The position numbers and the translations under genes are program-made. Below the pieces are notes generated by a model, which had not been told where the DNA came from, did no database searches, and worked only from the letters and a program-made list of their open reading frames with translations. A stretch of 64,000 nt of DNA from Edwardsiella anguillarum ET080813 (GTDB taxonomy: Bacteria > Pseudomonadota > Gammaproteobacteria > Enterobacterales > Enterobacteriaceae): assembly GCF_000264765.2 (NCBI RefSeq), contig NZ_CP006664.1, forward strand, positions 2,046,001 to 2,110,000. The letters are read 5' to 3'. This document shows, one piece after another, positions 38,020 to 38,889 of the stretch. Numbering within the stretch: the first letter of the stretch is position 1; the number at the start of each line of letters is the position of its first letter.

Positions 38020-38889
38020 TTATTTGCTGGAATGGTCTTTCACGACTTTGAATGTTGCGCAGAAATCTTCGCCGCCGAGGCCGCTTTCGATACCGCGGTC
38101 ATAAACGGCTTTTACCACGTCGACGCCCGGCAGCGTTAACCCGGACTCCTGAAGTAGGGTTTTCATGATGTTGACGTCTTTCGCCATGTTCTGAAGGGAA
38201 AACGCGGTACGGTAATCCTCCGCGATCAGGCTGTTAATTTTGCTGTCGAGATACCAGTTGGTCGCGCCGCCATAGGAAATCGCCGTGTGAAAATCAGTTT
38301 TATCAATGCCGTAGCGATCGGCGGTGGTCAGCATCTCGTTGACGCTGTTCTGAATGCCCGCCACCATCAGGTTGTGTATAATTTTCATTACCAGCCCGCG
38401 GCCATTCTCACCCATATGGATTTGATTATTGCCCATCATTGCCAGCACCGGTTTTACTTTTCCCCACGCCGCTTTGTCGCCGCCGACGTAGATACCCAGC
38501 TCCGCTTTGACTGCTGCCGGAACGGATTTCACCACCGGCGCATCCAGCATCACCGCGCCGGTTTTCGCCACTTCAGCGGAAATGTCCATTGAGACAGACG
38601 GGTCGATAGTCGACATATCAATGGTGATTTGACCCGCGTGTAAATGGGGAAGCAACTGTTGGTATACATCGAGAACGTGCTCAGAGCGCGGCACCATGCT
38701 GATAATCACGTCTGCCTGCTGCGCAACATCCGCAATGGAGACGGCGGCTTGCGCGCCGTACGCGACCAGGCGATTCACGGCTTCTGGGTTGAGATCGTAA
38801 ACCACGACATTGCCGGAGAAGGCGTTGACGATATTTTTCGACATGGCTTCGCCCATCAGGCCGAGACCGATAAATCCAATCGTATTCAT
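38020..38889 (-). CDS. Beta-hydroxyacid dehydrogenase family reductase, candidate sulfolactaldehyde or tartronate-semialdehyde reductase
   Basis: 289 residues. Rossmann motif GLGLMG at 8-13, the DMSTIDPS substrate-loop region at 91-98, and the catalytic lysine K169 in [14 protein letters not shown]. The usual family motif PVSGG after strand 6 is replaced by APVVKSVPA, placing K121 where most members have glycine. E. coli YihU, the sulfolactaldehyde reductase, carries an arginine at the matching place, by my hand alignment. Members reduce short acidic aldehydes. Here it would reduce the aldehyde made by the aldolase. GarR-like activity is the alternative. Confidence 0.8.

Follow-up and report, generated by a model that had tools for sequence, protein, structure and literature searches.

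Vibrio splendidus JLJ25 was reported in June 2026 to grow on sulfoquinovose (SQ) through a sulfo-ED cluster that has a sulfolactaldehyde (SLA) reductase and lacks an SLA dehydrogenase (PMC13372026). According to the same report, the SLA reductase of this strain is 31.2% identical to YihU and 53.6% identical to SftR of Clostridium symbiosum, 2,3-dihydroxypropanesulfonate (DHPS) is formed near-stoichiometrically with sulfolactate undetected, growth on SQ is lost without the SQ dehydrogenase gene, and the sulfo-ED pathway occurs in 81 of 6854 Vibrio genomes (PMC13372026). For Aeromonas cavernicola, a second paper mentions genetic evidence of the same reductase swap, citing another paper (PMC12133307). 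The families that make up sulfo-ED are given as an SQ dehydrogenase, a lactonase (PF08450), a dehydratase (PF00920) and an aldolase (PF03328) in a third (PMC9594981).

The locus studied here lies in a 64-kb stretch of DNA, the whole of which is called the window. A preliminary description had drawn attention to one reductase gene in it. The genes around this reductase are as follows.

36344..37228, minus strand: TauE/SafE-family exporter by family match, adjoining the SQ dehydrogenase gene; predicted cargo, probably the sulfonate product
37238..37999, minus strand: sulfoquinovose 1-dehydrogenase (SDR), 63% identical to P. putida SQ dehydrogenase (SQDH)
38020..38889, minus strand: reductase P0001 (ATG start, 289 aa), predicted SftR-type sulfolactaldehyde reductase, with the motif PVVKS and K121
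38892..39767, minus strand: SMP-30 family lactonase, candidate 6-deoxy-6-sulfogluconolactonase
39757..40650, minus strand: aldose 1-epimerase family protein, candidate sulfoquinovose mutarotase
40637..41431, minus strand: HpcH/HpaI aldolase, candidate KDSG aldolase
41438..43189, minus strand: IlvD/Edd dehydratase, candidate 6-deoxy-6-sulfogluconate dehydratase
43404..45173, plus strand: sodium:solute symporter-like permease (family by eye, conserved position), candidate sulfoquinovose importer
45146..46174, plus strand: LacI-family regulator (family by eye, conserved position)

On the minus strand, going from 43189 down to 36344, the order is dehydratase, aldolase, epimerase, lactonase, reductase, SDR and TauE exporter; the symporter and LacI regulator genes have the opposite direction. 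The best match of the SDR among solved structures was the P. putida SQ dehydrogenase, at 334 bits versus 207 for the next. Compared with this enzyme, the SDR retains the catalytic tetrad, D45, D99, R152, R154 and Q198, and has His for R101; D45 is described as the NAD-selecting residue, and R152 and R154 as belonging to the sulfonate pocket, in published work on SQDH (PMC12133307). The cluster thus brings together an SQ dehydrogenase, PF08450, PF00920 and PF03328, which is the sulfo-ED gene set. The rhizobial SLA dehydrogenase (SLADH), used as a query, had no match in the 64-kb window at 1e-15, so the gene content of a classical sulfolactate-forming pathway was not found there. For the step after the aldolase, the reductase replaces the usual aldehyde dehydrogenase. 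No sulfo-lyase was seen among the cluster genes.

These features resemble those of the JLJ25 system, whose sulfo-ED cluster likewise contains an SLA reductase but lacks an SLA dehydrogenase; the JLJ25 enzyme is 31.2% identical to YihU, compared with 30.6% for the reductase of one relative of the window locus (L016). JLJ25 belongs to another genus, and for the window organism the pathway is predicted from its genes. With Pseudomonas putida SQ1 and Rhizobium, the window shares homologues of the dehydratase, aldolase, lactonase and SQ dehydrogenase, but those systems have an SLA dehydrogenase, whereas the window has the reductase and a symporter. The rhizobial loci that we examined also have an ABC importer and a GH31 gene, unlike the window cluster. 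The pathway variant was already published for Vibrio in 2026, and the SftR type of reductase is published as well, so the window cluster is a new example and not a new kind.

The reductase matched Pfam NAD_binding_2 at 147.6 bits (cut-off 21) and NAD_binding_11 at 73.5 bits (cut-off 30). With both domains present and the catalytic Lys and Asn (K169 and N173) conserved, it belongs to the 3-hydroxyisobutyrate dehydrogenase superfamily. The NCBIfam YihU model NF012005 (sulfolactaldehyde 3-reductase) scored 138.1 bits against a cut-off of 348, while the tartronate-semialdehyde-reductase/HIBADH models scored 177-180 bits, above the YihU model and far under their own cut-offs. A search of the 4.33-Mb host genome for a second P0001-like protein found none at E <=0.001 (1 match, 9 candidates scored).

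In a MAFFT alignment with YihU of E. coli K-12 (28% identity), the segment D116-A-P-V-V-K121-S stands without gaps opposite D-V-P-V-G-R123-T of YihU, and K169, H172, N173 and V176 pair with K171, N174, N175 and S178. The preliminary description had placed K121 at the position of YihU Arg123, within a PVVKS that replaces the PVSGG of the family, and had placed H172 and V176 where YihU has N and S. Since MAFFT gave the same residue pairs, this hand alignment was correct. We take Arg123 to be the YihU residue that binds the sulfonate, and N174 and S178 to be substrate residues as well; at these three positions the window reductase has Lys, His and Val, and so lacks the YihU residue set. It shares with YihU the superfamily, the predicted reaction and a basic residue at the motif position, and differs in its overall identity, in these three residues and in its score under the NCBIfam YihU cut-off. 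GarR/GlxR tartronate semialdehyde reductases have the same fold and the catalytic Lys, with 1vpd among the top structural matches, but they have PVSGG without a basic residue and another gene context.

PVVKS, K169, H172, N173 and V176 were shared by 12/12 members of the reductase subgroup, which consists of the window protein, seven relatives from a genome scan, three further genomes of the same order and one faecal contig. The invariance of PVVKS in this subgroup is more than chance, and the unusual lysine is a constant feature of the enzyme group. Among the 57 homologues of the tree set, the motif position is occupied by Gly 28 times, by Arg 16 times and by Lys 13 times (11 PVVKS and 2 PVGKT). 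As this set was picked by similarity to the PVVKS subgroup, YihU and the protein of locus L050, and is no census, these fractions are not family-wide frequencies. The earlier phrase "usual glycine" therefore needs qualification: it suits those members of the family that are tartronate-semialdehyde reductases or hydroxyisobutyrate dehydrogenases, yet a basic residue was not rare in the set, with 16 Arg and 13 Lys in 57.

The faecal contig provided a second gene context for this enzyme group. Scans of viral contigs with A2 and A3 each gave a single partial relative, both on one contig. The faecal contig is an unannotated record from human faeces labelled Bacteriophage sp., with the following feature.

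L114 (MT835892.1), 4231-9320: sulfo-transaldolase sulfoquinovose cluster

The PVVKS protein of this contig is 54% identical to the window reductase and has the same helix residues. Its gene lies between a transaldolase gene (PF00923) and a DUF4867 gene, with GH31 and TauE genes following. DUF4867 corresponds to SqvB of the sulfo-transaldolase (sulfo-TAL) pathway, and SqvA of that pathway belongs to PF00923 (PMC9594981). Since it carries such a cluster, the record is probably bacterial DNA or mislabelled. Sulfo-ED and sulfo-TAL split different intermediates with different enzymes, and the aldehyde product that they have in common is sulfolactaldehyde, as stated in the report on JLJ25 (PMC13372026). 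No other sequence evidence argues as strongly for SLA as the predicted substrate as the occurrence of PVVKS relatives in both contexts. At 54% identity to the L114 protein, the window reductase also lies within the range of about 50% or more, over the full length, to a sulfo-TAL reductase by which we defined the SftR type. SftR of C. symbiosum LT0011 is presumably the reductase of a sulfo-TAL pathway; its 53.6% identity to the JLJ25 enzyme may be set beside the 54% between the window protein and the PVVKS protein of the gut sulfo-TAL cluster.

We then compared the clusters of relatives. A genome scan with two aligned sequences gave seven relatives at 71-79% identity (Citrobacter amalonaticus, two Enterobacter strains, Mixta tenebrionis, Leminorella grimontii and two Buttiauxella species), and the nine genes were in the same order in 7/7 of these loci, as well as in L015 and L016. 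Counting the window, the complete nine-gene sulfo-ED cluster was present at 10/11 proteobacterial reductase loci; the eleventh, L017, had the part of the cluster that its 6.6-kb contig allows and, after the reductase gene, a sulfoquinovosidase gene whose GH31 product shares 50% identity with E. coli YihQ. Loci L003 and L018 (genome G433) are not counted, since their contig equals in length the Citrobacter amalonaticus contig of L004. The rhizobial SLADH query matched 0/11 of the reductase loci, window included, within finite flanks (6.6 kb in total for L017, and roughly 9 kb to either side for L004-L010). Across the order, an SQ dehydrogenase was found at E 1e-70 in 4/394 genomes, the window's own among them, and all four had the reductase in the same cluster. 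The reductase itself occurred in 1/5 genomes of the genus (E 1e-60), and in 2/99 genomes of the family and 1/369 genomes of a class sample (both E 1e-65). No reductase was found on plasmids at E 1e-40, and neither the reductase nor the dehydratase gene had a match in E. coli genomes when searched at the nucleotide level. Two of the relatives, L004 and L005, also have a yihU gene within the same 19-kb stretch as the sulfo-ED cluster (the products share 75% and 79% identity with YihU of E. coli), and L005 has part of a yihQ homologue besides. In these two, Citrobacter amalonaticus (L004) and Enterobacter sp. ENT03 (L005), two sulfoquinovose routes with different SLA reductases may coexist.

Plasmids provided a contrast. 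We examined six of the 19 plasmid records with an SQDH-like gene (L081-L086), and the reductase query matched 0/6 of them. In four rhizobial-type loci (L081, L083, L085 and L086), an SLADH resembling succinate-semialdehyde dehydrogenase follows a TauE/TSUP gene. The Microvirga locus L082 has the remaining sulfo-ED genes and no close SLADH in the stretch, while the Acinetobacter locus L084 has a dehydrogenase and a lactonase homologue only, without a full cluster, and is probably not sulfo-ED. As a separate observation, the window TauE-family protein (36344-37228) had no tblastn match at 1e-15 in the six plasmid loci, and the rhizobial-type clusters carry a TauE/TSUP gene of their own; a change of exporter may have accompanied the change of product.

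The location of the cluster was also characteristic. Its nine genes lie between torS, which encodes a TorS-type sensor kinase, and a tRNA-Phe gene, with a direct repeat of about 177 bases (174/178 columns identical) around them.

35935..36111, strand not applicable: left direct-repeat copy, tRNA-Phe 3' end and downstream DNA, attachment-site-like
46361..46538, strand not applicable: right direct-repeat copy, covering the last 30 bases of tRNA-Phe
46509..46584, minus strand: tRNA-Phe, one end of the island

The span of ~10.4 kb (35935-46538) that the repeats bound contains the whole sulfoquinovose cluster. Its G+C content is 49-59%, versus 63-67% over torS. A genus mate, G003, has the same neighbours and one tRNA-Phe and aligns with both flanks, as an empty site, and tblastn found none of the nine cluster proteins at the site in G003, G004 and G001. 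Given the repeat, the lower G+C and the empty site in the genus mate, the cluster behaves as a tRNA-Phe-linked island. No integrase was seen inside it in the list of open reading frames, and the space between the nine genes and the repeats appears to leave no room for one. In Buttiauxella massiliensis (L008), tRNA-Phe is also close to the cluster copy; no tRNA was found in the stretch around the cluster in the other nine relatives scanned.

Taken as a whole, the gene is very likely to encode an SftR-type SLA reductase, which we predict to catalyse the terminal step of a reductive sulfo-ED pathway. The preliminary description had raised a sulfonate substrate only conditionally and from the residues; the gene neighbourhood, which it did not use, supports this part of the proposal well. 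In the proposed pathway, the symporter would import sulfoquinovose and the SQ dehydrogenase would oxidise it, making NADH. The lactone would then be opened, the resulting acid dehydrated, and the keto acid split into pyruvate and SLA. The reductase, which is probably NADH-dependent, would convert SLA into DHPS and so re-oxidise the NADH from the SQ dehydrogenase, and the TauE-family protein would export the product. DHPS is the predicted product because the reductase takes the role held by sulfolactaldehyde dehydrogenase in rhizobia. Some caution comes from two GabD-like proteins encoded in the host genome, 60% and 55% identical to rhizobial SLADH. As E. coli GabD is itself 62% identical to it, these two look like ordinary GabD, although SLA might still be oxidised elsewhere in the cell. 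A search of the host genome for a YihQ-like sulfoquinovosidase, which lacked its own positive control, gave no match; free SQ may therefore be what the cell relies on.

Two other readings of the cluster have to be weighed against this one. The genes might serve a non-phosphorylated ED-like route for the breakdown of a sugar that carries no sulfonate, such as a pentose or 6-deoxyhexose, with the reductase acting on glycolaldehyde, lactaldehyde or glyceraldehyde. The dehydratase, at 881.6 bits, falls just under the NCBIfam cut-off of 882 for L-arabinonate dehydratase, and the SDR matches a xylose dehydrogenase model at 297.5 bits (cut-off 400), which speaks for such a route; but the dehydratases of rhizobial sulfo-ED clusters carry the L-arabinonate dehydratase annotation too, and the SDR retains the sulfonate pocket of the P. 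putida enzyme in an operon that includes a TauE exporter. The YihQ-like gene in L017, the yihU genes near the cluster in L004 and L005 and the presence of the reductase subgroup in a sulfo-transaldolase cluster argue in the same direction, and we consider a plain sugar route highly improbable. Marginally less probable still is that the enzyme runs oxidatively and, in the role of a DHPS dehydrogenase, brings DHPS from outside into the cell's metabolism, as the YihU homologue DhpA of Desulfovibrio is described to do (PMC9594981). That direction is hard to reconcile with the lack of an SLA dehydrogenase match in the window and of a sulfo-lyase among the cluster genes, with an upstream aldolase that would already supply SLA, and with the accumulation of DHPS reported for V. 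splendidus JLJ25 (PMC13372026).

How the enzyme would hold SLA is a separate question. It is likely, judging from the alignment and its conservation, that K121 contributes to anion binding, because it aligns with the arginine that we take to bind the sulfonate in YihU and is the same in all members found. K121, with H172 and N173, would then hold the sulfonate where YihU uses Arg123. An AlphaFold structure predicted from 17 sequences (pLDDT 93.7, pTM 0.89) matched the family along its whole length, with Z 39.1 and rmsd 1.3 over 283 residues to 3pdu, and Z 39.1 and rmsd 1.6 over 287 aligned residues to 1vpd, the Salmonella tartronate semialdehyde reductase. YihU 6sm7 ranked behind GarR-like and other entries (Z 29.8, 220 residues, rmsd 4.3); this poorer match may be a difference in domain closure. 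The YihU-NADH-DHPS structure 6smy was listed among the structure matches. An earlier model from eight close sequences was poor past residue 160 and was set aside with its matches. A literature search on the sulfonate-binding arginine of sulfolactaldehyde reductase surfaced one paper, on SLA dehydrogenase, and a search for papers naming both sulfoquinovose and Arg123 found none.

SLA could also be the substrate with K121 in a structural or cofactor role, the pocket being formed by residues such as H172, Y134, Q180, N181, N184, Y213 and N234. Specificity may indeed lie elsewhere, since 17 positions are invariant in the 12 subgroup members and each is present in <=1/46 other homologues, and Arg or Lys occurs at the motif site also in homologues without sulfoquinovose genes nearby. 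The alignment of K121 with the presumed sulfonate ligand of YihU and the identity of PVVKS in 12/12 members weigh against such a role, which we regard as rather unlikely. Eleven Arg-type rows of the tree set came from the class of genome G888, which is not the class of the window and is probably Alphaproteobacteria, and nine of their neighbourhoods were examined (L068-L076). Queries for yih, SuyAB-like, SQDH, lactonase, aldolase and TauE proteins had no match there (tblastn, 1e-8) besides the homologous reductases; the sole further matches were a 59% dehydratase homologue (L069) and a 32% match to the L050 amidase (L068). YihU genes, for their part, sit in yih clusters (L051). As these nine neighbourhoods of an Arg-type group from another class held no sulfoquinovose pathway, a basic residue alone is weak evidence for sulfonate, and we dropped the rule that a basic residue at the motif position means a sulfonate substrate.

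Some neighbouring groups may be described for their own sake. Loci L055-L064 and L066, from the class of G888, encode proteins with PVGR, PIGR or GVGR motifs that are 38-45% identical to the L050 protein, and some of them adjoin amidohydrolase, TRAP-transporter or sulfatase-like genes by eye. The PVGKT reductases of L050 (6849-13900, genome G888) and L067 (genome G1172) are related to YihU. Close to each are an SMP-30 homologue and a split SAF/UxaA-type pair, whose two proteins share 42% and 56% identity across the loci. This pair is similar to the sulfolactate sulfo-lyase SuyAB, but the lactonase would fit a plain sugar-acid route equally well. L050, but not L067, is noted for an SsuA-like ABC transporter, whose SsuA-like binding protein is far under the cut-off of its model. 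L050 and L067 represent a C3-sulfonate or sugar-acid cluster of another kind.

The preliminary description had suggested that the lysine, if it binds sulfonate, would be a solution separate from that of YihU. In the best tree of 57 rows, the PVVKS group stands apart from the YihU group, and Lys needs two origins, on the branches starred in that tree. However, a single clade of all basic-residue rows was not rejected in the AU test of the same 57 rows (p-AU 0.123), so the separateness follows from the best tree and is not forced by the test. That a sulfonate clamp evolved twice in the superfamily, once as Arg in PVGRT (YihU) and once, in the SftR type, as the Lys of PVVKS accompanied by an altered His-Asn-Val helix, is thus a tentative proposal for which the chances are somewhat below even.

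The analysis proposes a function for a reductase left unnamed by the NCBIfam models, whose best sub-threshold matches are to tartronate semialdehyde reductase. Judged by gene content, DHPS-forming sulfo-ED reaches beyond Vibrio into Citrobacter, Enterobacter, Mixta, Leminorella and Buttiauxella, and the analysis offers a residue signature for this pathway that can be tested. If two clamps did evolve, PVVKS would mark DHPS-forming sulfoglycolysis in gut sulfo-TAL bacteria as well as in Gammaproteobacteria, and sequence alone would be enough to tell the genomes of DHPS producers from those of sulfolactate producers. Whether a pathway ends in DHPS or in sulfolactate determines which partner bacteria can use the sulfur, including the hydrogen sulfide makers of the gut.
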